From the IMG/VR virus record IMGVR_UViG_3300046524_000590, positions 1 through 31,171 of that record: a stretch of 31,171 bases of DNA; one strand, 5' to 3'. The notes beneath the pieces are model-generated. The model was not told the DNA's origin. It searched no databases and saw only the letters and a list, made by a program, of their open reading frames with translations. Origin of the DNA: a virus. The position numbers were made by a program, and so were the translations under genes. The first letter of the stretch is position 1, and the number at the start of each line of letters is the position of its first letter. This document shows, in pieces, positions 4,382 through 29,572 of the stretch.

Positions 4382-6096
4382 CGGTGGGTTCTGCGCCGGC
4401 CCTCCCGGCCTGGCCGCCCGACTATGTCGCCGAGCTGATAGCGCGACAGCATCGATTGCGGCGGTTGAAGGCGGATGCCGGGCTGCGCGCTGGGCTTGCC
4501 GAGCGATATCGCGAGGATCCCGCCGGGTGGATCGCGCATTGGGCCGTGACGTACGATCCTAGAAAGGCGGCGAGCGACGCGCCGACAGTGATGCCGTTCG
4601 TACCCTTTCCCCGCCAGGTCGAGATGATCGCGTTCCTGCACGCCAACGTCGATGCGCAGCAGAGCGGGTTGATCGAAAAAGCGCGAGACATGGGTGCGAC
4701 ATGGCTCGCTTGCGCCTTCTCGGTTTGGCTGTGGTTGTACCGGCCAGGCGCCGCGATCGGATGGGGCAGCCGCAAGGAGCAATTGGTCGACAAGATCGGC
4801 GATCCCGACAGTATTTTCGAGAAGATGCGGATCATCATTCGCCATTTGCCCCGGCTGATGCTGCCCGCCGGGTTCGATCCTCGCGACGACATGCCGAGCA
4901 TGAAGATCGTCAACCGCGCGACCGGTGCGACGATCACCGGCGAGTCGGGCGACAATATCGGACGTGGCGGGCGCAAGCTGATCTATTTCAAGGACGAGAG
5001 TGCACATTACGAGCGGCCCGAGAAGATCGAGGCGGCGTTGGCCGACACGACCAATGTCCAGATCGACATGAGCTCGGTCAACGGGCCGGGCAATGTGTTC
5101 CATCGCCGGCGCGAAAGCGGGATCGAATGGGCGCCGGGCGCTACGCTCGCCACCGATCGGGTCAACGTGTTCGTGATGGACTGGCGCGACCATCCAGCCA
5201 AGGATGCCGCCTGGTATGCCGGGCGGCGGGCCAAGGCGGCGGCGGACGGGCTGCTCCATGTCTTCGCGCAGGAAGTTGACCGTAATTACACCGCCGCGGT
5301 CGAGGGGATCATCATCCCGGGTGACTGGGTGGCGAGCGCGATCGACGCGCATCTGGTGCTGGGCTTCGACGATGAAGGCGCGTGGCGCGCGGGGCTGGAC
5401 CCGGCCGACGAGGGCCGCGACCGGCATGCGCTGGCCATCGCCAAGGGATCGGTCGTGCATTCGGTCGACGATTGGGGTGAAGGCGATGTCGGCAAGGCAA
5501 CGCGGCTGGCAGTCGACCGACTGCGCGGGCGGACAGTCGCGCTGCAATACGACAGCATCGGCGTCGGCGCGGGTGTGAAGGCGGAAGCCAATCGGCTGCG
5601 CGATGAGGTGGACGCGGACGGGCGCGCGTTGCTGCCCGCCGGGATCACGTTCCGGCCCTGGAATGCCGGCGCATCGCCGCTGCGGCCGCGCGAGCATGTC
5701 GTGCCGGGAGACCGCGAGACGCCGACGAATGGCGATTTCTACGCGAACCTTAAGGCGCAGGCGTGGTGGCAATTGCGGCTGCGGTTCGAGCGCACGCACA
5801 AGGCGGTGACGGCGGGCGAGGTTTACGACCCCGCCGACTTGATCAGCCTGCCGCGCGATATGCCGGGGCTGGCGTCGTTGCGGAAGGAATTGAGCCAGCC
5901 GACGCGCGCGGTGAACGGCGCGCTGAAGCTGGTGGTCGACAAGAAGCCCGACGGCACGAGATCGCCCAACAAGGCCGACGCGCTGGTGATGGCGTTCTGG
6001 CCGGCGGAGGATGAGGTGGCGTCGGTTGGGTTCCTGGACCTGGTGCGCGCGGCGAATGCGGTGACGGCAAACGGAAGCGATCAGGGTTCGGGATAG
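4378..6096 (+). CDS. terL: Terminase large subunit (packaging ATPase-nuclease)
   Basis: This 572-residue motor pumps DNA into the prohead and cuts it. The N-terminal ATPase shows the atypical Walker A of this family (EKARDMGATWLA), a Walker B-like strand with catalytic Glu (LIYFKDESAHYE), and GESGDNIGRGG between them. The C-terminal RNase H-like nuclease shows GLDPADEGRDRHA, ALQYDSIGVGAG and a final SPNKADALVMAF, supplying the acidic metal ligands. I chose the GTG at 4378, which overlaps the terS stop; a second GTG follows at 4384. The reading frame is open further upstream only as an overlap with terS. The 3' end overlaps the converging minus-strand gene by 16 bases. Confidence 0.95.
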   Translation: MTVGSAPALPAWPPDYVAELIARQHRLRRLKADAGLRAGLAERYREDPAGWIAHWAVTYDPRKAASDAPTVMPFVPFPRQVEMIAFLHANVDAQQSGLIEKARDMGATWLACAFSVWLWLYRPGAAIGWGSRKEQLVDKIGDPDSIFEKMRIIIRHLPRLMLPAGFDPRDDMPSMKIVNRATGATITGESGDNIGRGGRKLIYFKDESAHYERPEKIEAALADTTNVQIDMSSVNGPGNVFHRRRESGIEWAPGATLATDRVNVFVMDWRDHPAKDAAWYAGRRAKAAADGLLHVFAQEVDRNYTAAVEGIIIPGDWVASAIDAHLVLGFDDEGAWRAGLDPADEGRDRHALAIAKGSVVHSVDDWGEGDVGKATRLAVDRLRGRTVALQYDSIGVGAGVKAEANRLRDEVDADGRALLPAGITFRPWNAGASPLRPREHVVPGDRETPTNGDFYANLKAQAWWQLRLRFERTHKAVTAGEVYDPADLISLPRDMPGLASLRKELSQPTRAVNGALKLVVDKKPDGTRSPNKADALVMAFWPAEDEVASVGFLDLVRAANAVTANGSDQGSG

Positions 6097-6365
6097 GGTC
6101 CGACATCGGTATTGATCTCGACCGACCGGGCACCTTCGATAGTCTCCATCTCGCCGAGTACAATTCGCAGCGCCGCTGCGGCATCGTCACGGGTTCGATA
6201 GAGCCCGGATGGTGGATAGTCGTTGTTCCAGTAAGGCAGAAACTCCTCGGTTTCTTCGGTCAGATACTCCGTGACGAACACCCACAGGCCATCGGCGCGG
6301 GAGCAAACGCGTCCGCGACTTTTGCCTGACCGGGCAAGGAATGTTTCGATCGCGGTGACGAACAC
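6081..6365 (-). CDS. Hypothetical small acidic cargo protein
   Basis: This is a protein of about 94 residues, last of three minus-strand genes between terL and the portal gene. It is soluble, acidic and aromatic-rich, with LWVFVTEYLTEETEEFLPYW then YPPSGLYRTRDDAAAALRI. This gives the look of a compact alpha/beta domain, but I do not recognise it. The GTG at 6365 is the most plausible start, lying nine bases after the upstream gene's stop; the frame is open further back without a supported start. Genes of this size beside a lipoprotein on the non-late strand are typical phage cargo. Immunity or host-modulation is possible but unproven. Confidence 0.6.
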   Translation of the reverse strand: MFVTAIETFLARSGKSRGRVCSRADGLWVFVTEYLTEETEEFLPYWNNDYPPSGLYRTRDDAAAALRIVLGEMETIEGARSVEINTDVGPYPEP

Positions 6366-6373
6366 GGCGGCGG

Positions 6374-6625
6374 TCAGGCTCGATCGTCGCCGACGACCCG
6401 CAGGCGATCGTCGTCGATCTGGATCAGGGCATTGACCCCCGCTTCCCTGATATGGCGAAGCGCCATACGGCGGCACCGGTCGTCGGTGTTGATCTGGTGT
6501 TCGACCCAGCGACGCCATTTGGTGTCGGCCAGCGCGATGCGTTGGGCGTCCGACAGGCCAGTATCGTGTTCGGCTCGAAGGTGCTTGATGTGGTGAATCC
6601 AGCGATTGCGATCACTCTCTTTCAC
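6374..6625 (-). CDS. Hypothetical small basic cargo protein
   Basis: The protein has 83 residues. Its GTG start at 6625 overlaps the stop of the upstream lipoprotein gene (GTGA), so the two are probably translated together. It is mostly helical and His/Arg/Trp-rich (NRWIHHIKHLRAEHDTGLSD, then TKWRRWVEHQINTDDRCRRM), and ends with a short strand-like IQIDDDRLRVVGDD. There is no signal peptide or membrane segment. I do not recognise a family. The overlapping arrangement supports it as a real gene. Confidence 0.6.
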   Translation of the reverse strand: MKESDRNRWIHHIKHLRAEHDTGLSDAQRIALADTKWRRWVEHQINTDDRCRRMALRHIREAGVNALIQIDDDRLRVVGDDRA

Positions 6626-6906
6626 TGACCAACGCCGACCGTATCGACCTTGCCCGTAGCACGCTCGACCCATGCAACACCTCCGCCGCCGAAAGCTTCG
6701 GATGCCGGATCCCAGAAATGCACGACCCAATACTTGCCCCGGGCTTCGATCCGATGACGAACGACGTGCCGCGGGTCGGCGAACGTGCTGCCAAAACGGT
6801 CGCGGAGAACCGCCTCCGCGCGCCGTGCCGCTTCAGCTTGATCGACCGGGCCGGTCGTCGCGCAAGCGGCTGGCAGGAACAATAGCCAGGCAAAAGCGAA
6901 CTTCAT
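6622..6906 (-). CDS. Putative small lipoprotein, NTF2-fold immunity-like
   Basis: The protein has 94 residues, with a clear export signal: a Lys, then a hydrophobic core (MKFAFAWLLFLPAAC) ending at Cys15, which may be lipidated. The lipobox is imperfect, with Pro at -3. The mature part has a helix (AEAARRAEAVLRDRFG) followed by beta-like strands (KYWVVHFWDP, GGGVAWVERATGKVDTVG), the pattern of NTF2-fold immunity-type proteins. This fold suggestion is by eye. It is the first of three overlapping minus-strand genes inside the late operon. Phage lipoproteins of this size often block superinfection at the envelope, which is a reasonable guess here. The ATG at 6906 was chosen because it begins the signal peptide; an ATG at 6933 would add nine residues. 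Confidence 0.7.
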   Translation of the reverse strand: MKFAFAWLLFLPAACATTGPVDQAEAARRAEAVLRDRFGSTFADPRHVVRHRIEARGKYWVVHFWDPASEAFGGGGVAWVERATGKVDTVGVGQ

Positions 6907-6915
6907 CGCTTCACT

Positions 6916-6940: not shown

Positions 6941-7002
6941 AGTAATGAGCCAGTTCGACCACATTTCGGGCGTCAAAGAGCGTTCCGGTAAAGGAGAATC
7001 AC

Positions 7003-8328
7003 ATGCCCAAGGGCGGCGTGCAAACCAATATCACCTATAGCTGGGGCAATAGCAGCAAAGAGAATGCCTGGGGCCCGTTTTCGCCCGGCTTCCCGCTCAT
7101 GCCGGTCGTGCAGCAACCGGTCCGCGGCTACGACTTCAAGCCCAATATCAACGCGACGTTGCAGCCCCGCGCCTACGAGCAGACCGGGTTTCCAGCACTG
7201 CGCGCGTTCGCCAATGTCGAACTGGTGCGGCTGGCGATCGAGACACGCAAGGACCAGGTCGAGCGGCTCGACTGGCAGATCAAGCCGGTCGATGGCGCCG
7301 CCAAGATCGCAGACGATCCGCGCATCGTCGAGCTGACGCGGTTCTGGCGCAAGCCCGACGGAGTGACGCCATTCGCGACCTTCATGCGGTCGAGCCTGGA
7401 GGATTTGCTGACGCTCGACGCACCGGCATTCGAGAAAAGGCGCAATCGTGGCGGCAAGCTGATCGCGTTGGAGATCGTGCCTGGGGATACCATTCACCCG
7501 ATGGTCGACGATACCGGGCGCCGTCCGCGCGGGCCGAGCGACGTCGCCTATCAGCAGGTGATCAAGGGCGTGGTGTGGGCAAACCTGACCAATGCCGGCC
7601 TGCTCTACGCGCCGCGGAACGTGCGGCCGCATCATCTCTATGGCTTCGGGCCAGTCGAGCAGATTATCGTCACGATCAATACCATCCTGCGGCGGCAGGC
7701 GGCGCAGCTGAGCTATTTCACCGAGGGCAACGTGCCGGCGGGGCTGCTCAACGCGCCCGAGGGCTGGGACGCGGCGAAGATCCAGGAATTGCAGCAATGG
7801 TTCGATGATCGCATCGCCGGCAATGCCGCCGAGCAGAACAAGCTGATCTGGGGACCGCACGGATCGCAATTCACCGCTTTCAAGGCGGCACCGATCAAGG
7901 ACGAGTTCGACGAATGGCTGGCGCGGATCGTCGCCTTCGCCTTCTCGCTGCCCCCTACCCCGTTCGTGCGCCAGATGAACCGGTCGACGGCGATGGAGGA
8001 CCAGGAGCGCTCGCTCGAGGAGGGGCTCGAGCCGCTTCAACTGTGGATGAAGCGCTGGATCGACGACGTGATCCAGATCGAGTTCGGTTATTCCGACCTG
8101 GAATTCTCCTTCGTCAAGTCGACGAGCATCGACCCCCAGGTGCAGTCGGAGATCGACGATCGCGACTTGCGCAACGGGTCGAAGGTAATCGACGAGGTGC
8201 GGCATGCGCGCGGTGACGATCCGTTGCCTGATGGGCTGGGGGCGCGGCCGCTGTTGTATACCGGCGCTGGAGCGGTGTTGTTGGAGGATGCGGTGGCAGA
8301 GGCGACGGCCGAACCAACGGACGGCTGA
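7003..8328 (+). CDS. Portal protein
   Basis: This 441-residue protein would form the dodecameric ring at the capsid vertex through which DNA enters and leaves. Family features include VELVRLAIETRKDQVERLDW early, LSYFTEGNVPAGLLNAPEGW in the middle, and AFAFSLPPTPFVRQMNRSTA followed by AMEDQERSLEEGLEPLQLWM, the conserved crown/wing region of HK97-type portals. AGGAGA at 6992-6997 precedes the ATG. It is separated from terL by three minus-strand cargo genes, unusual because these two genes are normally adjacent. The acidic Ala/Glu C-terminus (about 20 residues) is likely flexible. Confidence 0.92.
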   Translation: MPKGGVQTNITYSWGNSSKENAWGPFSPGFPLMPVVQQPVRGYDFKPNINATLQPRAYEQTGFPALRAFANVELVRLAIETRKDQVERLDWQIKPVDGAAKIADDPRIVELTRFWRKPDGVTPFATFMRSSLEDLLTLDAPAFEKRRNRGGKLIALEIVPGDTIHPMVDDTGRRPRGPSDVAYQQVIKGVVWANLTNAGLLYAPRNVRPHHLYGFGPVEQIIVTINTILRRQAAQLSYFTEGNVPAGLLNAPEGWDAAKIQELQQWFDDRIAGNAAEQNKLIWGPHGSQFTAFKAAPIKDEFDEWLARIVAFAFSLPPTPFVRQMNRSTAMEDQERSLEEGLEPLQLWMKRWIDDVIQIEFGYSDLEFSFVKSTSIDPQVQSEIDDRDLRNGSKVIDEVRHARGDDPLPDGLGARPLLYTGAGAVLLEDAVAEATAEPTDG

Positions 8329-8367
8329 ATGGTGCTCGAACTACCAGTCGTGGTGACGCCGGCTCCG

Positions 8368-8583
8368 TTAGCCGCGCCTGCCACGGAAGATCGTCCAGCC
8401 GGCGAAGACGAACGACGCCAGCGCACCGAGCATCAGGACAAGCGCCGCAATATGATATTTGGCACGTTCGGGTGAGACACCGTTCGCCCCGAACGGCGCG
8501 GCATCGCCCTGTGCCTCCAGCGAGCGACCGACGAAATAGAGTCCCGTGGCGACCGCCAGGAAGATGAGCGGCTTGAATTTCAT
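8368..8583 (-). CDS. Small two-helix membrane protein (cargo)
   Basis: The protein has 71 residues and two predicted membrane helices: PLIFLAVATGLYFVGRSL (about 5-22) and IAALVLMLGALASFVFAGWT (about 45-64). These are joined by a short polar loop, and the C-terminus is basic (FRGRRG), probably cytoplasmic. It lies alone on the minus strand between portal and protease genes. The ribosome site is weak (GGGGGCAAG before the ATG). I do not recognise it. Small inner-membrane cargo proteins of temperate phages often act in superinfection exclusion, but nothing specific shows that here. Confidence 0.6.
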   Translation of the reverse strand: MKFKPLIFLAVATGLYFVGRSLEAQGDAAPFGANGVSPERAKYHIAALVLMLGALASFVFAGWTIFRGRRG

Positions 8584-8711: not shown

Positions 8712-10214
8712 ATGACGCGGTTTCGCCAGTTCGGCGCGATCACCAAGGTCGAGGATCAGGAAGACGGCACGATCAAGGTCTGGGGCGTCGCCTCATCCGA
8801 GACGCGCGACCAGCAGGGCGAGACGATCACCGCCCAGGCGATGAAGGCGGCTTTGCCCGACTATGGCCGCTTCCCCGCGCTGCGCGAGATGCACGAGCCG
8901 AGTGCCGCCGGGCGCGTGGTCGAGGCCGAGGTCGACGATCACGGCATCACCCAGATCTGCGCGCATGTCGTCGACCCGCTGGCGATCACCAAGGTGCGTG
9001 CGGGCGTCTATGCCGGCTTCTCGATCGGGGGAAAGGTGCTGAAGCGCGACACCGCCGACCGCAGCGTAATCACCGCGCTGAAGCTGGTCGAGATCAGCCT
9101 GGTCGACAGCCCCTGCAACCCCGACGCCGTCATCAACATGTGGAAGGCCGATATGGATTATGTTCCGAGTGGCGACGAGGTGGTCGCGAAGGCCCGCGAA
9201 CTGGCCGAGGATGCGGGATCGCGGCGATACAAGGACTTCCTGTTCAAGGCGCGCGAACGGCTGATCGCCGCGGCGCTGGCGAGCGACCTGGGCAACGATG
9301 ATGACGACGACCAGGACGAGGATCGCGAACCGGATGCGGGGGCCGCCCAAGCCGACGGTGACGGAGGTGCTCCTGCGGTGGATCCGGACGGCGGTAAGCC
9401 GGAAGACCAGGACAAGCAGCCGCCCTCCAAGCCGGCGGCCGGCGAGCAGCCCCCTGCCCGGCCCAAGCCTGGTGAGCAGCCCGCCGCCAAGCCGCAACCG
9501 AAGCCCAAATCGCCCGATCCGCAAGCCGATGCCGACGAAGACGATGCCGACGCGTCGCGCGATGGCGAAGCTGACGACGACGCACCGCCGCCCAAGCCCA
9601 AGCTGGCGTCGGATAGCAAGGATCAGGTGAAGCGTGTCGCGACCAGCGCCGATGCCGGCAACGACGCTGGTGATGCCGACACCGACGATGCCGGGGCCGC
9701 CCAAGCCGATGCCGATCGCATCCAGGCGGCACACGACCACCTCGTCGCGCTGGGCGCGCAATGCTGCGAGGACAATTGCGGCGACGCGGACCAGCCGCCG
9801 GCTAACGCTGCCGGCCGTCCTCGCCCGCAGGCTGCGCCGCCTGCTTCCGATCCCGGGGAGGAAACCGAGAAGCTTCGGCGCGGCGGCGCGCTGGGCGACG
9901 CCGTGATGGCCGACCTCGCCAAACGCTTCGGCGACACGATCACGATGCTGAACGCGACGATCGGCGATCTGACCAAGCGCCTGGAGCAAGTCGAGGCCGA
10001 GCCGGCGGCGCCGAGGACCGCAGTCGGGCCGTTGCGCGCGGTGAGCAAGGCCGAAGACGCCTCCCCCAATTCCGCCAACGGCGCGTCGGCGATCAGTGCC
10101 GATGAGCTGAAGAAAGTGATCGACACCCTACCCGAGCAGGAGCGCGGCCAGTTCCTGCTGCGCATCGCTCTGTCCAACCCGACTCTGGTTCACGCGGCCC
10201 GCGCAGCCGCCTGA
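8712..10214 (+). CDS. Head maturation protease with long disordered tail (protease-scaffold fusion)
   Basis: The protein has 500 residues. The first 150 match the prohead protease fold of XkdF/HK97 type, with candidate catalytic His61 (REMHEPSAAGR), Ser104 (YAGFSIGGKV) and the strand KLVEISLVDSPCNPDAV. Residues about 195-330 are a low-complexity acidic and Pro/Lys-rich region (runs of Asp, repeated KPKP/EQPP). A cysteine cluster follows (QCCEDNC), then a helical segment (LAKRFGDTITMLNATIGDLT) like a scaffold core. The C-terminus (LPEQERGQFLLRIALSNPTL) probably binds capsid subunits. No separate scaffold gene is present, so the fusion likely guides assembly and then digests itself. AAGGA precedes the ATG. 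It lies immediately before the capsid gene. Confidence 0.85.
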   Translation: MTRFRQFGAITKVEDQEDGTIKVWGVASSETRDQQGETITAQAMKAALPDYGRFPALREMHEPSAAGRVVEAEVDDHGITQICAHVVDPLAITKVRAGVYAGFSIGGKVLKRDTADRSVITALKLVEISLVDSPCNPDAVINMWKADMDYVPSGDEVVAKARELAEDAGSRRYKDFLFKARERLIAAALASDLGNDDDDDQDEDREPDAGAAQADGDGGAPAVDPDGGKPEDQDKQPPSKPAAGEQPPARPKPGEQPAAKPQPKPKSPDPQADADEDDADASRDGEADDDAPPPKPKLASDSKDQVKRVATSADAGNDAGDADTDDAGAAQADADRIQAAHDHLVALGAQCCEDNCGDADQPPANAAGRPRPQAAPPASDPGEETEKLRRGGALGDAVMADLAKRFGDTITMLNATIGDLTKRLEQVEAEPAAPRTAVGPLRAVSKAEDASPNSANGASAISADELKKVIDTLPEQERGQFLLRIALSNPTLVHAARAAA

Positions 10215-10275: not shown

Positions 10276-10277
10276 CA

Positions 10278-19153: not shown

Positions 19154-19266
19154 TCGGTTCTCCTCCCGTTGATCTGGCTGCGCGCAACGACGGGGCTAGC
19201 ATCGAGCCGAGCTTGAACTGCAGCAATCGCGTCCACGACCCTGTTGTGAAGGGACGACGCTATCAT
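19147..19266 (-). CDS. Possible small ORF coupled to the exported protein
   Basis: A 39-residue reading frame (MIASSLHNRVVDAIAAVQAR at its start) has an AGGAG ribosome site about nine bases upstream. Its stop overlaps the start of the exported-protein gene, in the pattern GAATGTTAA. Composition is protein-like rather than shadow-like. An upstream ATG at 19368 in the same frame would make it 73 residues. It may be a leader peptide, a small protein or a gene remnant. Confidence 0.35.
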   Translation of the reverse strand: MIASSLHNRVVDAIAAVQARLDASPVVARSQINGRRTEC

Positions 19267-19515
19267 TCGGCAGGCTCCTCGCAATAGGGACTGCGTGCCG
19301 ATAGATCGAAAACGGAGCAAAAACCTTCGAGCGTCATGCGACGATTTCGGAGCTGACTCCGTTGCCATGATCGCCCCGCCCGCGATCTGTCCGAAGCGCC
19401 GAAATATCGAACCGGAACGGGTTGCGCACATCGCGTCCGCGTCGCTGCGGCGGCGACAGCGCCGTGCCCAAGCGCCCTGCGGCGATCCGCGCAGCCCATT
19501 CGATTGGAGACGAGA
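19267..19515. other. Intergenic region between divergent cargo and baseplate genes
   Basis: About 250 bases hold no gene I can support. It should contain the minus-strand promoter for the exported-protein unit, but I see no convincing -35/-10 pair. One short dyad, CGGAG-CTGA-CTCCG, lies near 19350. The block interrupts an otherwise tightly packed tail operon and looks like the edge of an insertion. Confidence 0.4.
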
Positions 19516-20172: not shown

Positions 20173-20174
20173 CC

Positions 20175-21041: not shown

Positions 21042-21481
21042 CGCGCGAGGATGTGGTGCGCGAGGATGTGGTGCGCGAGGCACTCGGCTGGGAAGGAACG
21101 CCGTACCATCACCGGGCACGCTTGCGCGGCGCCGGCGTCGACTGCGCGATGCTGCCGGCGGCGGTGTATGAAGCGGTGGGACTGATTCCGCGGGTCGAGC
21201 CCGATTACTCGCCGCAATGGATGCTGCATCGCGACGAAGAGCAGTTCCTGGGCTGGGTCACGCGGTTCGCGCGCGAGATTCCGCGCGAAGCGGCCGGGCC
21301 CGGCGACCTCGCGATCTGGAAATACGGCCGCTGCTATTCGCATGCCGCGATCGTCATCGCTCTGCCCGAAGTGCTGCACGCCGTGATCCGCGGCGGCGGC
21401 GTGGTCCGCGGCAATGCCGACCGCGACGAGGAGCTGCGCTCCCGGCCGGTCAAGTTCTTCACCCTGTTCGAGGATCAATGA
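21038..21481 (+). CDS. NlpC/P60 tail peptidase
   Basis: The 147-residue cysteine peptidase is of the TIGR02219 family, gp14 in gene transfer agents, thought to cut peptidoglycan peptides so the tail tip can reach the membrane. The catalytic Cys lies in GAGVDCAMLPAAVY, and the His in CYSHAAIVIA, with PGDLAIWKYGR between them. Relatives have DCIGL or DCSGL after the Cys, while here it is DCAML. The N-terminus holds a tandem copy of EDVVR. It overlaps both neighbours (ATGA at each end), so it is translated together with the hub and tip proteins. Confidence 0.88.
   Translation: MTREDVVREDVVREALGWEGTPYHHRARLRGAGVDCAMLPAAVYEAVGLIPRVEPDYSPQWMLHRDEEQFLGWVTRFAREIPREAAGPGDLAIWKYGRCYSHAAIVIALPEVLHAVIRGGGVVRGNADRDEELRSRPVKFFTLFEDQ
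21045..21080 (+). repeat. 15-base tandem repeat at the NlpC gene start
   Basis: The unit GCGAGGATGTGGTGC occurs twice in full (21045-21059 and 21060-21074), with six further bases of a third copy. It is in frame and encodes EDVVR twice. The unit length is a multiple of three, so gain or loss of a copy would keep the reading frame. Confidence 0.85.
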
Positions 21482-24474
21482 TGGGCGGCAAGTCAACCTC
21501 GACCACGTCGCCGAAGCTCAACGGGCTGCAGGTCCAATCGTCTACCCTAGGCCTGCCCATCTCCCTAGGTTGGGGCCGCGGCCGGATGAAGTGCAATCTG
21601 ATGTGGTACGGCGCCTTCACGGCGATTGCGCACACCACCAAAACCGGCGGCAAGGGTCTAGGCGGCGGGTCGAAGAACACGACCTACACCTACACCGCGT
21701 CGATCATGATGGGCATTTGCGAGGGCGGCGCCGGCGGTATTCGGGGCATTCGCACGATCTACAAGGACACCGCCGTGCTGACGTCGCTGTCGGTTGCCGG
21801 GTTGAGCCTGGCGACGGGCAGCCCGACGCAACCGGTGTGGAGTTACCTGACTTCCAAAGTGCCGGCGCAGGCGATCCCCTATAGCGGCATCGCTTACGTC
21901 TATGCCCAGGATTACGACCTGGCCGACAGTGCGACGCTGTCGAACCACAGTTTCGAAATCGACTTCGGCGTGCAGCTGAGCGGTGTCGCGAACGGCGACG
22001 CCGACCCGAAGGATATCATCACCGATTTCCTGACCAATCCCGCTTACGGCGTGCCGATGTGGGGATCGGGACTGATCGGGGATTTATCGGACTATTCGCT
22101 CTATTGCCGTGCCAACAACCTCCTCTTGTCGCCCGTGCTCGAATCGCAGTCGGGCGCGGCGTCGATCCTGGAGGAATGGCTGACCGCGACGAACTCGGCC
22201 GCCTTCTGGTCCGAGGGCATGCTCAAGATCCGGCCCTATGGCGATGCACCGGCATCCGGCAACAGCGCCACCTGGAATCCGAACCTCACACCCGCTTATG
22301 ACCTGACCGAGGACGACCTGATCGTCGACGACAGCGGCAATGCCGTGTCGATCGAGATCGTCGACCAGTCCGACGCCTATAACATCGTTCAGTTCGAGTT
22401 CCTCGACCGCAGCCAGCAATATAATGTCGGCATCGCGACCGCCCAGGACCTGGACAACATCGTCACGTTCGGGCGGCGCAAGCAGGATCCGACGACGGTC
22501 CATTGCATCTGCGACGCCGGCATCGCGCGCAAGGCGGTGCAGCTCTATGCTCAGCGCGTTCTCTACACGCGCGAGAAATATGCGTTCAAGCTGCCATGGA
22601 ACTTCGCGCTGCTCGAGCCAACCGATCTCGTCACGCTGACGACGGCGACCGATTCACTGCAGCTCGATCGCGTGCTGGTGCGGATCATCGAGATTGGCGA
22701 GGACGCCGACGGGTTGCTGGCGATCACGGCGGAAGGCGTCCCCATCGGCATTGCCTCGGCGGCGCTTTATGCCTCCCACTCCGGCTCGGACGGATACAAG
22801 GCGAACACCGATATCGCGCCCGGATCGGTATCGGCACCTTGGCTGTTCATTGCGCCGCCGAACCTCGCCGGGCTGGATGCCGAAATGTGGGTGGCCGCCG
22901 CGTCGACATCGCCGACCTGGGGCGGCTGTCAGGTCTGGATCAGCACCGACGGCGCCAATTATTCGATGATCGGGACGATCAATGGGCCGGCGCGCTATGG
23001 CACGCTCACCTCTGCGCTGGCGACGGGTGCCGATCCGGATACGACGAACACGCTGGCGGTCGATCTGTCGAACAGCCTGGGACAGCTCGACAGCGTCAGC
23101 ACGTCGGATCGCGACGCTGGGGTTACGTTGTGCATGGTCGGCGACGAGGTGGCGTCTTATCGGACGGCAACCCTGACGGCAGCCAACCGCTATAACCTGA
23201 CCCAGCTCCGTCGCGGCCAGCGCGGTACGATTTCTGGCGCGCATGCCAGTGGGACCAACTTCGCGCGGATCGACGATGCGATCTTCAGGTTCGGCTATGA
23301 CGCCAGCAATGTCGGCGACACGATCTACGTCAAGCTTCCCTCGTTCAACATCTACGGCCGTGGGCTCGAGGATCTTGCCACGGCCACCGCTTATTCCATC
23401 GCGATCAGCTCGGCGCCAGCGCGCGCCGGCTATCGCGACATCAAGTTCATGCGTTCCTATGCGCAACCGCCGACCCCCAGCGGGGATAATCCGTCGGGTT
23501 GGTATGACGGCATACCGGCCGGCACAGCGACGATCTGGTCCAGCACGGCGCTCAAGACGGCGAACGGAACTTTGTTGGGCATCTGGACCGCGCCGCAATC
23601 GCTGTCCGGCCTGACTCCCCGCGGCGATTATAGCAGCGGAGCGACCTATTTCCTGAATAACAGCGTCGCCTATGGCGGCGGCAGCTACGTCGCGACCCAG
23701 GACAATTTCAGCGGCCATGCGCCGACCGGCACCGGCCAGGCCAATGCATATTGGGACGTGCTGGCCGCACCGGGGAGCGCCGGCGCGCCGGCCGTGCCGC
23801 CAGGGACATTCACCGCAACGATCAGCGTTCCATCGGGATCGGCGGTCAATCTGCGGTCTTTGGCCGACGCCGCCGGCTATACCGGCAATTCGGACGCGAC
23901 GGTGACCTTCAACGTCCCCAATGGCGTCAATGTCACCGGGCTTGCGAGCGGCGGCATCGGCATCGACACCGGCAGCTGGCCGACCACATCCCATGCGATC
24001 GCGCTGACATTGGTCGTCCAGAACGGCGGTTCGGTTAGCGGCGGCGGCGGTGACGGCGGGAGCAGCGGCAGTGCCGGCATGGCTGGCGGCGATGCCATCT
24101 ATGTCCGAGTACCGATGTCGGGCGGGATTACGATCAACGCCGGCGGCGCGGTGCGCGGCGGCGGCGGTGGCGGCGGATCGAACGCGATGGCTTCCCCCTA
24201 CAAGATCGGCACCGGCGGCGGCGGTGGCGGTGCGCCGAACGGCCAAGGCGGCGCCGGTAGCGAGGGTTACCTGACGACCGGCAATGACGGCCAGGACTGG
24301 TCGGCGGGCGGTGCCGGCGGCTCGCCGGGCGGCGGCGCCGGCGGCAGCTATGCGACCGCGGGCAGCACGTCGGGCGGAGGAACGCCCGGCGGCGGTGCCG
24401 GCTTCGCCGTCCGCAAGAACGGCAACGCCGTCACCGTCACCAATAACGGCACGATGACCGGATCCGCCGCGTAA
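21478..24474 (+). CDS. Large tail tip / central fibre protein with glycine-rich adhesin end
   Basis: The protein has 998 residues. The N-terminal 500 match the gp15/'megatron' tail tip family (LPISLGWGRGRMKCNLMWYG, YSGIAYVYAQDYDLADSATL, then ILEEWLTATNSAAFWSEGML), which seals the hub and carries host contacts. The region 715-763 (SSGATYFLNNSVAYGGGSYV, then an aromatic YWDV) resembles a small carbohydrate-binding module. The last 150 residues are extreme glycine runs broken by polar turns (GGAVRGGGGGGGSNAM, AVTVTNNGTMTGSAA), like polyglycine-sandwich adhesin tips. The start is ATG 21478, overlapping the NlpC stop; a second ATG follows directly. The final part probably determines which host surface is bound. 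Confidence 0.88.
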   Translation: MMGGKSTSTTSPKLNGLQVQSSTLGLPISLGWGRGRMKCNLMWYGAFTAIAHTTKTGGKGLGGGSKNTTYTYTASIMMGICEGGAGGIRGIRTIYKDTAVLTSLSVAGLSLATGSPTQPVWSYLTSKVPAQAIPYSGIAYVYAQDYDLADSATLSNHSFEIDFGVQLSGVANGDADPKDIITDFLTNPAYGVPMWGSGLIGDLSDYSLYCRANNLLLSPVLESQSGAASILEEWLTATNSAAFWSEGMLKIRPYGDAPASGNSATWNPNLTPAYDLTEDDLIVDDSGNAVSIEIVDQSDAYNIVQFEFLDRSQQYNVGIATAQDLDNIVTFGRRKQDPTTVHCICDAGIARKAVQLYAQRVLYTREKYAFKLPWNFALLEPTDLVTLTTATDSLQLDRVLVRIIEIGEDADGLLAITAEGVPIGIASAALYASHSGSDGYKANTDIAPGSVSAPWLFIAPPNLAGLDAEMWVAAASTSPTWGGCQVWISTDGANYSMIGTINGPARYGTLTSALATGADPDTTNTLAVDLSNSLGQLDSVSTSDRDAGVTLCMVGDEVASYRTATLTAANRYNLTQLRRGQRGTISGAHASGTNFARIDDAIFRFGYDASNVGDTIYVKLPSFNIYGRGLEDLATATAYSIAISSAPARAGYRDIKFMRSYAQPPTPSGDNPSGWYDGIPAGTATIWSSTALKTANGTLLGIWTAPQSLSGLTPRGDYSSGATYFLNNSVAYGGGSYVATQDNFSGHAPTGTGQANAYWDVLAAPGSAGAPAVPPGTFTATISVPSGSAVNLRSLADAAGYTGNSDATVTFNVPNGVNVTGLASGGIGIDTGSWPTTSHAIALTLVVQNGGSVSGGGGDGGSSGSAGMAGGDAIYVRVPMSGGITINAGGAVRGGGGGGGSNAMASPYKIGTGGGGGGAPNGQGGAGSEGYLTTGNDGQDWSAGGAGGSPGGGAGGSYATAGSTSGGGTPGGGAGFAVRKNGNAVTVTNNGTMTGSAA

Positions 24475-24508: not shown

Positions 24509-26635
24509 ATGCAATATTACGAGTTCATCGCCTCCCGTGGCGACACGGGGGCCGTGTTGCCGTTCGCCAAGGTCACCGTGTTTCTGGCGGGTACGACGAC
24601 GCTGGCAACGATCTTCGACAGTGCCAATGCCGGCCTGGCGAATCCAACGACGGCCGCGACGTCCGGGCTGGTGGGGTTTGCCGCCGCCAACGGTGCCTAT
24701 GACGTTCAGATCGCGTCGGCGGACGGATCGTATCTCGCGCCGATGGTCCATGACCTTCAGCTGTACGACCTGACGCAGTTGGATGCGCAGGTGGCGTCGG
24801 TCGCGGCGGCCACGACCGCTCCGGGGTTTCTTGCAGTCGTTGCCGACTTGGCGCTCGGCGCTGCGAGCAAGATCGGGACGGTGGCCGCGGATCTGTTAAG
24901 CGGAGCCAGCAATATAGCGGTGGTTGCGGCTGATCTGGCTTTGGGCGGTGCTTCGCTGATCAGGCAGGCGATTTCGAGTGCGGCGGCAGCGGCGTCTTCT
25001 GCCGCGGCGGCGGCAGCGAGTGCTGCCTCTATCTCGTGGTTTTTTCGCGGGCCTGCCGGTTTCGCTCTGACTGATACAGCGGGCTATCGCTGGCTCAACG
25101 TCACGCTTACAGATATCAAGCACGCCACCATCGACCTGATCAAATCGCGACTGGCGGCGCTAGAAGCCTATGCTGCCAAGCTGCCGTTGATCAGCGCGCC
25201 CGGCGCCGCAACCTTTTCGCTAGTCGACAGCAACGGCTACAACTGGTTGAAGGCAACGCCGACCACCTTGCAGCACAAGGTCATCGAGGCGATGTCGAAC
25301 CGAATCGTGGCAGCCCTTCGTGGACCAGCCGATCCGTCGATTGCCAATATGCGCATCATTGCGGAACGCATCGGCCTGCACATGTCCGGCGAATCGCTAT
25401 CGCTAGGGCATGGCTCGCCGGTCATAACCGTGGGCACAAGCACAACCTCGGATATGTTCGGCAATGCCGGGCTTACAAAAGCTAGTATCGTCCCGGATGA
25501 CATCAGCGACATATCGAGCGCGTCAGATCCCGACCTAATTTCGAACCGCGCCGCGCTCACACCGGCCATTGAAATCAGCTACAGCGCCGACGCCGATGAT
25601 TGGACCAGCCACGGTGAAACGCCGCTCACCGGCTGCGCGCAGATGATCGTGCAGCTCCTGAGGGACGAAGACGGCATCGACTTCCTCGTGGCTGGGATGC
25701 GCTTCTTGCTTTCCGATGACGGTCGCAACGGCGGCAGTATAACAACCGAAGATGAAACGCTCACCGGCCTAACAGCGCAGCGTGTCTATGCCAGCTTTGG
25801 GCAGGCCCAGGCACTCTATGGGGCGCTCGGCAAGTCTTATGCGCCGGCGGCGCAGATGATCGTCACTGGGACGAACGATAATGCCTCCGACAGCACAAAT
25901 TACCCGAGCGGGGCGGATACGAAATGGTTCTACACTCGGGCTCAGACCGTGCAGATGCAGCGCCAAGCTAAGGCGGTCACCCTCAAGCTCATTAGTCCGA
26001 ACGCACGACTTCCGCTGCTGATCGGCCAAACGGCGACGCATACCAATCCAGCCTTCAACGCGCCGATTCCGCACGTTGCGCTCGATCAGCTCCAACTCGC
26101 AATCGATCACCCAGAGTTCATCCTGGCTTGCATCCAGTACGGGGTGCAGAACGGCGTCAACGACGTCCACATGACCGGCGCTGGCAGCAAGCAAATGGGT
26201 GCCTATTTCGGCTGGCACCTTAAGCGCCTGATGTTCGATGGCCTGCGTATCGGACCGATGGTGCCGACCTTCACGGCGCAGAACTCGCAGATCGTCGCGA
26301 CCTTCCCCGTCCGTGCGGGCCACACGATTTCTGGCGGCCTGACAGTTGCCGACACCACCGTTCTCTCGAACTGGGGCGTTGCGGCTGTCGACGCGAGCGG
26401 CGTCGCGAAGACACTCAGTAACCCTCGCATGGTCGCGCGCGATCGCATCGTATGGGACGCGCCAGCTGCTCCCGCAAACACCTGGAAGTTCCGCTGCGGT
26501 TACACCGGCAACACCACCAAGGGGTGGACCAACATCGCCGAAACCCGCGCCGATTCCACGCTGATCTTCGATCCCTATGGCCTGCGCCTGCCGATGTATC
26601 GCTGGCTGCCTATCTGTGAGGTGCCCCTGACATGA
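24509..26635 (+). CDS. Tail fibre/tailspike with SGNH-hydrolase-like domain
   Basis: The protein has 708 residues. The N-terminus (residues 1-95, YYEFIASRGDTGAVLPFAKV) is the attachment domain. An Ala-rich helical neck (about 155-175) and a repeated motif, SWFFRGPAGFALTDTAGYRW then FSLVDSNGYNWLKATPTT, follow. From residue 290 SGNH blocks appear: block I G294-E-S296-L-S, block III G454-T-N456-D457, and a late D552-V-H554 (NDVHMTGAGSKQMG). Such domains remove acetyl or other ester groups from surface glycans. The last block is DxH rather than the usual DxxH, with Asn where Asp is expected, so activity is likely but not assured. AAAGGA precedes the ATG. It sits next to an acyltransferase gene, a telling pairing. 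Confidence 0.8.
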   Translation: MQYYEFIASRGDTGAVLPFAKVTVFLAGTTTLATIFDSANAGLANPTTAATSGLVGFAAANGAYDVQIASADGSYLAPMVHDLQLYDLTQLDAQVASVAAATTAPGFLAVVADLALGAASKIGTVAADLLSGASNIAVVAADLALGGASLIRQAISSAAAAASSAAAAAASAASISWFFRGPAGFALTDTAGYRWLNVTLTDIKHATIDLIKSRLAALEAYAAKLPLISAPGAATFSLVDSNGYNWLKATPTTLQHKVIEAMSNRIVAALRGPADPSIANMRIIAERIGLHMSGESLSLGHGSPVITVGTSTTSDMFGNAGLTKASIVPDDISDISSASDPDLISNRAALTPAIEISYSADADDWTSHGETPLTGCAQMIVQLLRDEDGIDFLVAGMRFLLSDDGRNGGSITTEDETLTGLTAQRVYASFGQAQALYGALGKSYAPAAQMIVTGTNDNASDSTNYPSGADTKWFYTRAQTVQMQRQAKAVTLKLISPNARLPLLIGQTATHTNPAFNAPIPHVALDQLQLAIDHPEFILACIQYGVQNGVNDVHMTGAGSKQMGAYFGWHLKRLMFDGLRIGPMVPTFTAQNSQIVATFPVRAGHTISGGLTVADTTVLSNWGVAAVDASGVAKTLSNPRMVARDRIVWDAPAAPANTWKFRCGYTGNTTKGWTNIAETRADSTLIFDPYGLRLPMYRWLPICEVPLT

Positions 26636-27579
26636 GAGTTGCTATTCCCTTCGCCGGCGTCGATGCGTCTGCGCTTGGCTATGGCCGCACGCGGTCCTGT
26701 CCGAACTTCGGCGCCGGCTATGCTGCCTACATGTTCGGCACCTCGCTCAACGACTCGCCAACGGTCAACCTATTCACTGGCGCCAACGATGGACGGCTGA
26801 TCGGTACGCCAGCGGCTGTCGGCTTGGTCGGCGGTCCGATGGCTACCACCTTCAGCGGGGCGATCACGGGCGGCAACCTGCTGACGGTCACCGGCTCCGT
26901 GACCGGCGACCCCCTCGCGGTCGGCCAAACGATTGAGTTGACCACTGGCGTGGGCGGAAGTCTGGGCGTCATCTCGTCGCTTGCGACCGGAACCGGCGGC
27001 GCTGGCACGTATAATCTCACTGGCGGCGTCAACACCTCGTCACAATCGATGCGCGCCTTCACCCGCTTTTTCGAGTTGCCGGGATTCGCGCGCGACATCT
27101 TCAACCTTGGCAGCGCACTTACCTTGCTCGCCGTCTACAAATCCGCGATCAATCAAGGCATCCTGTCGGACGACATCAATGGCGGCTCATTGGGCATGCT
27201 GGTGCCCGGCTTGTTTGAGGTCCAAACCTTCGGTCGCGACAGCGTTGGCACGGTGGTCAACGTCTCCACCAGTTCAGGTTTCGCCAATGGCGCCACGACC
27301 TGGAGCATGGGCGTATCGGAGTATAACACAACCACCGCCCAAGGTTTCTTCCAACGGTCTGGATCGGCCCGTAGTGCTTCGGTATTCGCGACCACACGAA
27401 CCGCCAACCCGATGGGCAGCACCACGCGCAAGCTACGGACGCACCTCTATACCACTACAACACCCGGCGCGACGATTGCAGGGATCGCGATCTATACCAA
27501 GATGCTGTCGAGCGCGGAGTTGGACGACGCATTTAGTTACTGGCGCGACATTCTGTCCGATGCTGGCGAGGTGTTGTAG
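26632..27579 (+). CDS. Fibre-associated protein, LamG-like fold
   Basis: The 315-residue protein starts at an ATG overlapping the tailspike stop, so the two are co-translated and perhaps form one receptor-binding complex. The ends fit a concanavalin/LamG-like beta sandwich, closing with AGIAIYTKMLSSAELDDAFS, a pattern frequent in phage fibres. Residues about 80-140 (TFSGAITGGNLLTVTGSVTG, then GTGGAGTYNLTG) match a short module that recurs as an insert in many phage virion proteins. It overlaps the converging methyltransferase gene by 43 bases, suggesting that cargo was inserted right against its end. Confidence 0.78.
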   Translation: MRVAIPFAGVDASALGYGRTRSCPNFGAGYAAYMFGTSLNDSPTVNLFTGANDGRLIGTPAAVGLVGGPMATTFSGAITGGNLLTVTGSVTGDPLAVGQTIELTTGVGGSLGVISSLATGTGGAGTYNLTGGVNTSSQSMRAFTRFFELPGFARDIFNLGSALTLLAVYKSAINQGILSDDINGGSLGMLVPGLFEVQTFGRDSVGTVVNVSTSSGFANGATTWSMGVSEYNTTTAQGFFQRSGSARSASVFATTRTANPMGSTTRKLRTHLYTTTTPGATIAGIAIYTKMLSSAELDDAFSYWRDILSDAGEVL

Positions 27580-28394
27580 CCCTCGGGGATGACAAGGTAA
27601 TCCCCGACCGGCAAGCGCTCGGATTTGTGTTCGACAAGGACCGTCCGATTGAAGAGCGCGCCCTTTTTGCTCGTATACAGCATCAATCGAAATGGGACCG
27701 GAATCAGTTCCGCAAGCGCGGAGGTGGTCGGCGTGTGAAGAGTGGTCTCGCTGATCTCGACCCAAATTAGAGGACGGTTAGCGATGATCGTCTCACGAAG
27801 TCCGCGGAGCACGTTCGGCTCGAACCCCTGGACGTCGATCTTGATTGCGTCGATGGCTACGCCGCGCAATTCTTCATCGCCGACAGCAATGTGCGCGCTG
27901 AGGCCATGAGCGTTGTCCAATTCTCCATCGAGAAAGGTAGACAGGCCGTGGTTGTCATTGACGAAGATTGGTAAGTCGGCAACCGCGTCCCCCAATCCGA
28001 CCTTGCGCAATTCAACCTTCGCCCAAGGGTTGATCGCGATATTCTGCTCGACCCGCGGCCAGACCTGTGGATTTGGCTCGAACGAGATCACGCTATTGAA
28101 GTGGCGGGCGAACGCTAGCGCGTGGTTCCCGATGTTTGCGCCGACGTCAGCGATCGTCCCGCGCCGGCTCGCCCGGGCGAGAAAGGGTGCGATTTTGTGC
28201 CAGTCGTATGAACCGTAGAGATAGGCCTCGCGGTCGATCAACGACTTCAGATTGCCTGCGAAGCGGACCTCACCCCGCCGACATTCGAACTCGGCGTCAT
28301 GCTTCGCAAGTCTAGTGGCGATCGCTGGCCAGCCACGAACGTGGCGCATGAAACTGAGGGATTTGGCGAGCTTGGCAGAAAGCGGCACTGTCAT
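27537..28394 (-). CDS. FkbM-family methyltransferase
   Basis: The protein has 285 residues with the SAM-binding motif DVGANIGNHALAFARHF (about 100-116), the acidic ribose ligand in FEPNPQVWPRVEQN, and the FkbM signature IDAIKIDVQGFEPNVLRGL. This family methylates hydroxyl groups, often on sugars of surface polysaccharides. No clear ribosome site precedes the ATG at 28394; the gene lies 50 bases after the acyltransferase in the same direction, so one mRNA is likely. It is antisense to the late operon. Together with the acyltransferase it suggests surface modification of the lysogen. The exact substrate cannot be read from sequence. Confidence 0.88.
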   Translation of the reverse strand: MTVPLSAKLAKSLSFMRHVRGWPAIATRLAKHDAEFECRRGEVRFAGNLKSLIDREAYLYGSYDWHKIAPFLARASRRGTIADVGANIGNHALAFARHFNSVISFEPNPQVWPRVEQNIAINPWAKVELRKVGLGDAVADLPIFVNDNHGLSTFLDGELDNAHGLSAHIAVGDEELRGVAIDAIKIDVQGFEPNVLRGLRETIIANRPLIWVEISETTLHTPTTSALAELIPVPFRLMLYTSKKGALFNRTVLVEHKSERLPVGDYLVIPEGYNTSPASDRMSRQ

Positions 28395-28444
28395 GGCGCG
28401 GTGGTCTATCAGCGCTGCCGCTATTCGGCCAACGAGAATTGCGA

Positions 28445-29572
28445 TCAGAGTGGGCGATCAGCGACTTCCTCGATAACAGATGGCTTCATACGTACACGTG
28501 ATCGGATCCATTCGCGCGCTGGCTCTTCGATGTAGAGGAAGACCACGACGGAACCTCCGACGACTACCAAATACTGTAACGGCACGAGCCATTTACTCTC
28601 GCCCAACAGCCAAGTCATGTAAAAGTGCGCCGGCTGGTGGAGCAGATATAGCGAATAGCTCGCCGCGCCAAGCAGCACGAGCCAACGTTGTTGGAGAACT
28701 CTAGCAACGATCGAGCCATAATCGCCCGCAATGGCCAAGATAAGCAGCGCCGCCAACACCGTCACGGCAGACGCTACCCATGGCTCGTGCGATATGCATA
28801 GCATCAACAAAAGCACGGCGATCGGCACCCACGACGGCACGGGAAAACGCTTCCCATCACGCCTGAAATGCAACTCGCCGACCAGCACCCCGATCACGAA
28901 TTCAGGCAACCGGATGATCGGCGTCGGTACCCATCGGAGCCATTCGAAATATGCCGGATGCAGCGAGAAGAACGCCGAACTGCCGGTTGTGAAGTCCAGA
29001 ACCGCTAGGGCCAGAAGGGCTATATAGATCGACCGCGTTGACAGCTTAGTCGCGACGGTCGTGAGCCAGGGAAACCAAAAGTAGAAAAACGCCTCTACCG
29101 AGATCGTCCACGACGGCCCGTTCCAGATGGCGAGAAGCGGCCATGGCGCTGTGATCCACCAATGCAAAAGCAAGAATTGCGGCACATCGCGCCAGTCGTA
29201 GTTCACGCCTGCAAACGGGAACATCACGATCACAGTGATTAGGTATACCGGGTAAATGCGAGCAAACCGAGCAACGGCGAATCGTTTGATATTTTCCCGG
29301 TCGACTAGCTTGCAGCGGTAGGTGTGGTGCAGAATGAAGCCGGACAGTACGAAGAAAAACGTGACGCCGGTGTAGCCGTTCAACAGCACTGACTTAATAA
29401 TGCCGGGAATATGCGGCTGTGCGGTGATGAACCCGGAGCCCGAATGATACATCACAACGAAAATTGCTGCGAAGAACCGGATACTGGTTAGTGGCTTGAT
29501 GAGATTGGCGCTAGCGGCGTCCGCTTTCGTTTGACCAGTACACCGTGCCGCTCGATTCGCGCTTTCTGACAT
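28445..29572 (-). CDS. Acyltransferase 3 family membrane protein (OafA-like O-acetylase)
   Basis: This integral membrane protein has about 375 residues and around ten helices. Family marks are LTSIRFFAAIFVVMYHSGSG with the catalytic-type His, TGVTFFFVLSGFILHHTY, the basic RFAVARFARIYPVYLIT, NGPSWTISVEAFFYFWFPWL, and the late ASYSLYLLHQPAHFY. OafA-type enzymes add acetyl groups to O-antigen or capsule, and phage copies cause serotype conversion. I chose the ATG at 29572 (MSESANRAARC); the frame runs upstream to 29614. The stretch is noticeably richer in A and T than the late genes, which fits recent acquisition. The lysis cassette starts on the other strand about 110 bases away. Confidence 0.88.
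   Translation of the reverse strand: MSESANRAARCTGQTKADAASANLIKPLTSIRFFAAIFVVMYHSGSGFITAQPHIPGIIKSVLLNGYTGVTFFFVLSGFILHHTYRCKLVDRENIKRFAVARFARIYPVYLITVIVMFPFAGVNYDWRDVPQFLLLHWWITAPWPLLAIWNGPSWTISVEAFFYFWFPWLTTVATKLSTRSIYIALLALAVLDFTTGSSAFFSLHPAYFEWLRWVPTPIIRLPEFVIGVLVGELHFRRDGKRFPVPSWVPIAVLLLMLCISHEPWVASAVTVLAALLILAIAGDYGSIVARVLQQRWLVLLGAASYSLYLLHQPAHFYMTWLLGESKWLVPLQYLVVVGGSVVVFLYIEEPAREWIRSRVRMKPSVIEEVADRPL

Follow-up and report, generated by a model that had tools for sequence, protein, structure and literature searches.

Four variable cargo junctions in the late gene cluster of a probably immobile, GTA-like element of Sphingomonas

The window described here is the whole 31,171-nucleotide stretch of an IMG/VR virus record, and its gene map was checked with ORFs, Pfam and PHROGs over positions 1–31,171. 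Its plus-strand late cluster is split by seven minus-strand genes, which lie in four blocks (6081–6906, 8368–8583, 18416–19153 and 27537–29572). An earlier sequence-only reading had placed these breaks between terL and portal, portal and protease, tape measure protein (TMP) and DUF2460, and fibre and lysis genes, and ORFs, Pfam and PHROGs bear this out. The features of the window are as follows.

1–534, minus: gA, a protein without known function, encoded furthest to the left in the element; bases 1–3 of the record are its stop codon
596–934, minus: HTH repressor-like regulator (PHROG 2328, HTH_3)
1235–1969, plus: g1235, conserved, a possible regulator; a homologue in the G209 prophage, 57% identical, lies upstream of the terminase
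2138–3652, plus: FAD monooxygenase of the PRK06834 subfamily, in all copies that reach this gene
3715–3830, plus: non-coding block upstream of terS, candidate late promoter (alignment of 11 copies)
3905–4381, plus: terS, terminase small subunit (weak PHROG 309 match, position)
4378–6096, plus: terL, terminase large subunit (PHROG 2)
6081–6365, minus: island 1, m1, 94-aa protein with homologues in relatives, overlapping terL by 16 bp at its 3′ end
6374–6625, minus: island 1, m1b, 83-aa protein with homologues in relatives
6622–6906, minus: island 1, m2, 94-aa lipoprotein-like exported protein with homologues in relatives
7003–8328, plus: portal protein (PF04860, E=6.4e-17)
8368–8583, minus: island 2, m3, membrane protein of 71 aa with two helices, carried by about half of the copies
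8712–10214, plus: prohead protease S78 (PF04586)
10278–11807, plus: major capsid protein, MCP (phrog_13692)
15360–18419, plus: TMP (position, homology)
18416–19141 or 19153, minus: island 3, m4, putative exported protein and sole gene of this island; overlaps the TMP stop codon by 4 bp
19516–21481, plus: tail-tip module of DUF2460 (about 19516–20172), DUF2163 and NlpC peptidase (PF09343; PHROG 778, 329)
21478–24474, plus: tail tip/host-specificity protein (position, homology)
24509–27579, plus: type A fibre, comprising a 708-aa fibre and a 315-aa protein (phrog_4201)
27537–28394, minus: island 4, m5, FkbM methyltransferase (PF05050, E=6.9e-12)
28445–29572, minus: island 4, m6, acyltransferase family 3/O-acetyltransferase (PF01757, E=1.8e-33; phrog_3333)
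29670–31171, plus: lysis genes h1, h2 and h3 (holin-like) and endolysin (phrog_315, phrog_1026)

Every copy that extends to gA has its left end there, and gA adjoins host genes in four genomes. At the other end, the lysis genes are followed in host genomes by an Rz-like gene and then by the host flank. The non-coding block at 3715–3830 is nearly invariant across the 11 aligned copies, and it contains a promoter-like TTGACT-N16-TATGTA and a LexA-like box with one mismatch. The type A fibre carries GESLSLG and NDVHM motifs which, by eye, are reminiscent of SGNH esterases. Pfam and PDB profile searches gave no match to an SGNH fold, and because the structure model failed (mean pLDDT 31), the assignment remains a by-eye motif.

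Judging from homologues in many relatives and low omega, the seven minus-strand ORFs are genes and not chance reading frames. Omega is 0.12 for m1 and m3, 0.04–0.07 for m4, 0.08–0.20 for m5, 0.11–0.16 for m6 and 0.29 for m2, while m1b gives 0.71 in one close pair and 0.19 in a more distant pair. The suggestion that their products are of envelope type holds for five of the seven (the lipoprotein, two-helix membrane protein, exported protein, acyltransferase and possibly the FkbM methyltransferase) and fails for m1 and m1b. Only m5 and m6 fall in named families, and NCBIfam gives no match for m1, m1b, m2, m3, m4 or m6. The m4 protein has a signal-peptide-like N-terminus and, as read from the alignment, four invariant cysteines; its fold model (mean pLDDT 69) has no PDB match below E 1e-2. 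In a phage database there was neither a DNA match to the late cluster nor an m4 homologue. Homologues of m1b, 57–62% identical, occur in ordinary chromosomal settings of other Sphingomonas. A likeness of m1b to an 83-aa gene beside a SRAP gene was rejected, as pairwise BLASTP gave no alignment and the genome scan was weak (E=6e-7). The island blocks are preceded by 96–374 bp of upstream sequence, and scans for promoter-like and terminator-like sites at the islands gave counts not above chance.

Relatives were drawn from IMG/VR and GTDB, and those with an MCP at least 94% identical are termed close copies. Among these, the terL-portal junction (slot 1) ranges from 356 to 2178 bp and the portal-protease junction (slot 2) from 81 to 963 bp, while protease-MCP and g14678-TMP stay at 62–64 bp and 305–307 bp in the same copies. 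Slot 2 is nearly empty in L007, L015 and L029. In L038, a temperate-phage relative (MCP 83%), slots 1 and 2 are closed, at 11 and 12 bp, and in L037 the terL-portal junction is closed with the stop codon abutting the Shine-Dalgarno sequence. In both slots, cargo is bounded on one side by the stop codon or final codons of a structural gene and on the other by the invariant Shine-Dalgarno block of the gene that follows. Slots 3 and 4 of close copies always hold minus-strand genes, except slot 4 of the single copy with a type C fibre, and island 4 consists of the acyltransferase with or without the FkbM methyltransferase.

The islands are thus not the same in all relatives, and since content differs among close relatives at each of the four junctions, the proposal that genes were repeatedly acquired or exchanged at these boundaries stands. 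As with morons, genes are present or absent between genes that adjoin each other in relatives, most clearly at islands 1 and 2. Opposite orientation is not the rule that it had seemed to be, as the cargo of slots 1 and 2 is on the plus strand in some copies (a DUF1835/DUF3658 protein and a 151-aa membrane protein). The four junctions of the head-tail-lysis cluster very probably act as cargo slots.

In Sphingomonas asaccharolytica, where its locus measures 32 kb, and in a Sphingomonas MAG, the element is bordered by the same host genes, and two sister species (G106 and G134) have remnants at the same site with different internal deletions; the FAD monooxygenase gene is unbroken in the G106 remnant. 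The four genomes agree in their host flanks, with the citrate synthase/PRC-domain gene at the left and azoreductase/HxlR at the right. The grouping of S. asaccharolytica with G106 and of the MAG with G134 is favoured by informative sites in the left flank (99 vs 58 vs 58), the right flank (42 vs 2 vs 4), the left end of the element (68 vs 11 vs 8) and the Rz gene (14 vs 7 vs 3). Between S. asaccharolytica and the MAG, dS is similar in the two parts, about 0.22–0.65 in the core and 0.33–0.66 in the flanks. Complete copies are found in 2 of 295 genomes of the genus. The window and the other metagenomic copies, which are trimmed records, can by inference be placed at this locus from their identical gene order.

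No tyrosine integrase (PF00589) occurs in the window or its relatives (23 records), and the stretch bounded by host genes in G001 and G002 has neither an integrase nor a replication gene. The element also lacks the DnaB, RecT and RuvC-like genes of L038. The element borders in S. asaccharolytica share no att-like direct repeat of 10 bp or more, and outgroups offered no clean empty site because synteny of the flanks is lost beyond the four genomes. The shared locus, the host-tree signal and the lack of integrase and replication genes make it very probable that the element is fixed in the chromosome and vertically inherited. The lysogen of a temperate prophage, which the sequence-only reading had assumed as the setting, is therefore probably to be replaced by an integrase-less chromosomal element.

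The core genes are under purifying selection, with omega of 0.02–0.2, similar to host flank genes. Between S. asaccharolytica and the MAG, omega is 0.024 for MCP, 0.046 for portal and 0.074 for terL; ranges are 0.05–0.08 for portal and 0.07–0.09 for terL. The two complete genomes and the window have unbroken core genes, and the Shine-Dalgarno blocks at the slot edges are preserved. As two of four host lineages have lost the structural half, selection to keep it does not act in every lineage. A particle function has probably been retained.

Islands 3 and 4 co-vary with neighbouring tail genes. Identity of island 3 tracks that of the TMP C-terminus (Spearman 0.82; r=0.82 and p=0.0005 in a partial Mantel test that accounts for DUF2460) and does not track DUF2460 (−0.11), and the TMP C-terminus is swapped jointly with island 3. 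Strict functional matching of TMP and m4 is weakened by the copies L030 and L031, in which m4 is 97% identical and the TMP C-termini only 56%. The type A fibre goes with acyltransferase clade A in 8 of 8 copies, and the 1010-aa type B fibre with clade B, about 24% identical, in three copies, two of them nearly identical; the type C fibre has no acyltransferase. Physical linkage alone can explain both associations. If any islands have a function in the envelope that matches an adjacent tail gene, islands 3 and 4 are the strongest candidates.

Three other explanations bear on these observations. Under the first, the window is an ordinary temperate sphingomonad prophage whose morons form a superinfection-exclusion or lysogenic-conversion set, with the missing genes outside a record that is trimmed at gene ends. 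Exported proteins, lipoproteins, membrane proteins and acyltransferases are typical morons, and L038 demonstrates that a related phage with replication and recombination genes exists. The complete element, however, lies directly between conserved host genes in two genomes without a recombinase or replication gene, and the host-tree signal, the sister-species remnants and the want of integrase in related records all count against such a prophage. The MAG does have a serine recombinase, but as part of a defence-gene insertion missing from the other three genomes. An ordinary prophage is therefore unlikely. The minus-strand ORFs might instead be antisense frames or the islands chimeric joins of assembly, and one listed ORF (19147–20187, minus), rejected as a second gene of island 3, is indeed merely the antisense of DUF2460. 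In two genomes and many independent metagenome contigs, however, these genes turn up again at the same junctions, and their omega is well below 1, which already refutes this artefact for 7 of the 8 minus-strand ORFs and leaves it scarcely any probability.

The remaining explanation is a cryptic prophage that decays slowly and in which islands are neutral insertions, accumulating since there is no longer a need to transcribe the structural genes as a unit. It would fit the large internal deletions that occurred twice, independently, among four host lineages, as well as a temperate relative without islands 1 and 2 and the homology of m1b to genes of ordinary host chromosomes. Against it stand the unbroken core with omega like that of host flank genes, the near-invariance of the block upstream of terS and the preserved slot-edge Shine-Dalgarno blocks. 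Slow decay is rather improbable, if slightly less so than an ordinary prophage. The window is best explained, with a probability of roughly 0.6, as an immobile, vertically inherited, phage-derived GTA-like particle element of the S. asaccharolytica clade with four cargo slots.

In such an element, homologous recombination via the conserved flanking structural genes would swap a slot along with the 3′ portion of the upstream gene, and transcription of the minus-strand genes may take place when the late operon is off. Slot 3 (a putative exported protein, TMP-linked) and slot 4 (glycan acyl or methyl transfer, fibre-linked) could then alter the envelope of the carrier and cause it to admit or, most likely, refuse particles that have the same tail. 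A role of islands 3 and 4 in exclusion or self-recognition is possible, if somewhat doubtful. The idea of a common superinfection-exclusion programme finds no support as it was put. No island protein convincingly matches a defence family; in PADLOC there is only a weak partial mad2 match for the FkbM methyltransferase. In a different and unlikely reading, the element would be a GTA lineage whose head genes are independent of RcGTA, with a swappable recipient-recognition (kin-marking) code based on receptor provision, not exclusion. The slot-4 acyltransferase would make or mark a polysaccharide recognised by the co-inherited fibre, and the slot-3 product would be the exported partner of the co-inherited TMP. 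Were this reading true, a GTA lineage would exist in soil Sphingomonas that lack the RcGTA-type DUF2460.

The likeness of GTAs to defective prophages makes them difficult to detect (PMC11841831). The present element, which IMG/VR lists as a virus, follows the host tree, with a core under purifying selection and four standing cargo slots. A caution follows for soil data, in which tight, recurrent “viral” contigs may represent chromosomal elements. If particles are made, it would be a second sphingomonad GTA-like lineage, present in a cultured type strain. It would then offer naturally occurring variants that exchange tape measure, fibre and envelope cargo jointly, and recipient choice or exclusion by immobile particle elements would become directly testable.

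The known GTAs (RcGTA, CcGTA, DsGTA; BaGTA) are likewise chromosomal and vertically inherited, without integrase or replication genes, and the element shares with them a complete head-tail and packaging cluster under purifying selection. Its tail-tip order of TMP-DUF2460-DUF2163-NlpC-tip is that of RcGTA, a module common to many phages, and its DUF2163 matches the RcGTA particle protein 6tba (E=1.1e-10). Its head genes, in contrast, are not of RcGTA type, and the MCP profile had no PDB match at E<=1 among solved structures, RcGTA included. The RcGTA-type DUF2460 present in other Sphingomonas is missing from the S. asaccharolytica clade. The published low-carbon signature of GTAs is not consistent, with carbon lower than in phage homologues in 6 of 10 proteins and higher in 4. 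Unlike GTAs, the element keeps an HTH regulator of its own at a single locus with lysis and fibre genes and with the cargo slots.

Among morons, escape from HK97 gp15 and TP-J34 Ltp maps to the tail tube or TMP (PMC10883804), and Glo of V. cholerae K139 is a soluble periplasmic exclusion protein (PMC3952083). Like the island genes, these are independent phage- or prophage-borne genes, some exported and some linked to TMP or injection, but no sequence relation to the island genes was found. TP-J34 ltp sits in the lysogeny module, whereas island genes sit in structural gene junctions, as alternative cargo in several fixed slots of an element seemingly unable to move itself. Serotype-converting prophage acyltransferases and SGNH-type fibre esterases (Shigella Oac; Klebsiella prophages, PMC13123978) compare with the element in that an acyltransferase family 3 gene neighbours the receptor-binding fibre; here, unlike in those systems, the acyltransferase clade changes with the fibre type within an immobile element. 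Domesticated prophages (PMC8987985) have similarly lost autonomy and are inherited vertically under purifying selection, while this element keeps the full set of head, tail, packaging and lysis genes and swaps its cargo.

The window, a virus record of 31,171 bp, carries an element that probably occupies a fixed chromosomal locus and descends vertically; its particle genes are under purifying selection, and its cargo can be exchanged at four junctions. ORF calling and family searches resolve a plus-strand late cluster of siphovirus type, running from terS (3905) through to the endolysin (31171). The sequence-only reading held that opposite-strand islands break this cluster, and the same searches bear this out, with seven minus-strand genes in four blocks.

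Minus-strand islands and an upstream plus-strand gene
2138-3652, plus strand, upstream of terS: FAD monooxygenase, PRK06834 subfamily
Island 1, terL/portal, minus strand: three genes (m1, m1b, m2), of 94 aa, 83 aa and a 94-aa lipoprotein-like product
Island 2, portal/protease, minus strand: a single 71-aa two-helix membrane protein (m3)
Island 3, tape measure protein (TMP)/DUF2460, minus strand: a single exported protein (m4)
Island 4, fibre/lysis genes, minus strand: FkbM methyltransferase (m5; PF05050, 6.9e-12) and acyltransferase (m6; PF01757, 1.8e-33)

A second long minus-strand ORF at island 3 was rejected as a gene, being the antisense of DUF2460. The FAD monooxygenase is related to rifampin monooxygenases but falls under their cut-off. 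It is found in all close copies that reach its position and is still intact in the G106 remnant described below, as though it served a separate function.

Searching IMG/VR with the capsid protein yielded 80 relatives, whose identity runs from 99% down to 59%. The window proteins were mapped onto these relatives and junction lengths were measured, with a capsid identity of at least 94% defining close copies. Across close copies, terL-portal ranges from 356 to 2178 bp and portal-protease from 81 to 963 bp, while two other junctions are near-constant (protease-major capsid protein (MCP), 62-64 bp; g14678-TMP, 305-307 bp). The latter gap (15053-15359) probably encodes the frameshift extension of a tail assembly chaperone. 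Gene content at the islands also varies among close copies, and they are therefore real variable slots. Slot 1 contains m1, m1b and m2, only m1 and m1b, a plus-strand DUF1835/DUF3658 protein, or other small genes; slot 2 contains m3, a 65-aa gene or a 151-aa membrane protein, or is almost empty (L007, L015, L029). Homologues of m1b (6374-6625), 57-62% identical, sit singly at ordinary chromosomal positions in about 10 other Sphingomonas genomes (L223-L230).

Slots 1 and 2 are each bordered by an invariant Shine-Dalgarno block that belongs to the downstream gene. In relatives L037 and L038 the stop codon abuts this block at terL-portal (11 bp), as it does at portal-protease in L038 (12 bp). The ancestral cluster was therefore probably contiguous at both slots, with cargo sitting between stop codon and Shine-Dalgarno.

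Slot 3 is occupied by m4 or by an exported protein unrelated to it, and is older and wider than slots 1 and 2. The m4 gene, whose product begins like a signal peptide and has four cysteines that are invariant in the alignment, is present in 20 IMG/VR loci, all of this lineage, including the more distant L030, L031 (capsid identity about 84-85%) and L202; it was not found in 294/295 genus genomes, nor in sequenced phages. In a G079 prophage with a capsid only 50% identical, another exported gene occupies the same place on the minus strand (TMP ends at 7832, gene at 7833-8234), and a G209 prophage carries an opposite-strand P22_AR_N antirepressor-type gene there (L183:10802-11371). In phages further removed (L032, L034, L036), this position is taken by a plus-strand structural gene.

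Cargo also follows neighbouring tail genes. Island 3 identity tracks the TMP C-terminus (Spearman 0.82; partial Mantel r 0.82, p 0.0005; 22 loci) but not DUF2460 on its other side (-0.11). Copies with a type A fibre (window, L002, L004, L007, L021, L028, S. asaccharolytica NBRC 15499 ("asac") and a Sphingomonas MAG) have a clade A acyltransferase, in some cases alongside FkbM, those with type B (L011, L012, L016; the last two near-identical in this region) carry a different acyltransferase, and the type C copy (L015) has none. TMP and fibre types vary independently. These patterns suggest that cargo and adjacent tail gene form matched pairs. Physical linkage accounts for the association equally well: slots 1 and 2 likewise co-travel with the last codons of the upstream gene, and L030 and L031 break the TMP-m4 match.

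Among GTDB genomes, asac (split over two contigs) and the MAG hold close copies with common host flanks: an oxidoreductase, two citrate synthases and a PRC-domain gene on the left, and an azoreductase, an HxlR regulator and a SET-domain gene on the right. Between these flanks neither copy has a recombinase or replication gene, apart from a serine recombinase found only in the MAG; together with DISARM-like helicase and methylase genes, it sits exactly between left flank and gA (L142, L122). A gene for a 1142-aa autotransporter-like serine protease adjoins the right end in the MAG (L120) and G134 (L165) and is absent in asac and G106; the MAG right flank also has an acyltransferase gene. Two genomes of the S. 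asaccharolytica clade retain remnants with the same site and borders. In G106, gA-HTH-g974-g1235-FAD-terL(1-220) is joined to the lysis genes; in G134, gA-HTH-g974-g1235-terS-terL(1-96) is joined to the endolysin end. The two deletions are not alike, and these genomes fall in different pairs of the host tree; the losses are therefore independent. The window runs exactly from gA stop codon to endolysin stop codon, as in a trimmed provirus, and its own copy presumably lay at this locus.

The quartet (asac,G106)(MAG,G134) is favoured by informative sites in each of four regions: left flank, 99:58:58; right flank, 42:2:4; left element end, 68:11:8; Rz gene, 14:7:3. Between asac and MAG, dS is 0.22-0.65 for core element genes, a range overlapping that of the flank genes (0.33-0.66). 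Omega values of the core genes are low (MCP 0.024, portal 0.046, MTP 0.058, terL 0.074). The TMP (dN 0.55) and m6 (dS 2.2) lie far above the core: they were replaced rather than gradually changed. Integrase PF00589 was detected neither in the window nor in 22 related records, and the element lacks the DnaB, RecT-like and RuvC-like genes that adjoin the terminase in the temperate relative L038. The element is thus probably not a mobile phage. Of the earlier proposal of lysogen-expressed prophage cargo, acquisition at junctions stands, whereas the prophage setting probably gives way to the shared host locus, vertical descent and lack of integrase. The capsid family (10278-11807) extends, at 45-48% identity, to prophage-like Chloroflexota loci (Bellilinea, Thermanaerothrix), which would be an unusually wide host range for a capsid type.

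About 100 bp upstream of terS (3715-3830) is near-invariant in 11 copies. It contains a promoter-like TTGACT-N16-TATGTA together with a LexA-like box that departs from GAAC-N7-GAAC at one position; the exact box precedes an SRAP gene in the same genome. This block is a possible SOS-linked late promoter.

In a GTA-like (gene transfer agent) working, the element would make particles in some cells, minus-strand cargo would be expressed while the late operon is off, and cargo would be swapped when copies recombine via their conserved structural genes. Islands 3 and 4 may adjust the envelope so as to refuse particles bearing the same tail; less probably, the change would let such particles be recognised. 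On the exclusion side, HK97 gp15, TP-J34 Ltp and K139 Glo are known analogues (PMC10883804, PMC3952083), and SGNH fibres occur together with prophage acetyltransferases in Klebsiella (PMC13123978).

The element is a candidate GTA whose DNA packaging is putative; the GTA amino-acid cost signature was not seen in it. RcGTA-type DUF2460 was not found in the four genomes of the S. asaccharolytica clade (G001, G002, G106, G134) and is present in the other Sphingomonas genomes tested (G209, G079, G202), and one particle element may possibly have replaced another in this clade. The element is not an RcGTA, since no solved structure matches its capsid profile, although its DUF2163 matches RcGTA 6tba.
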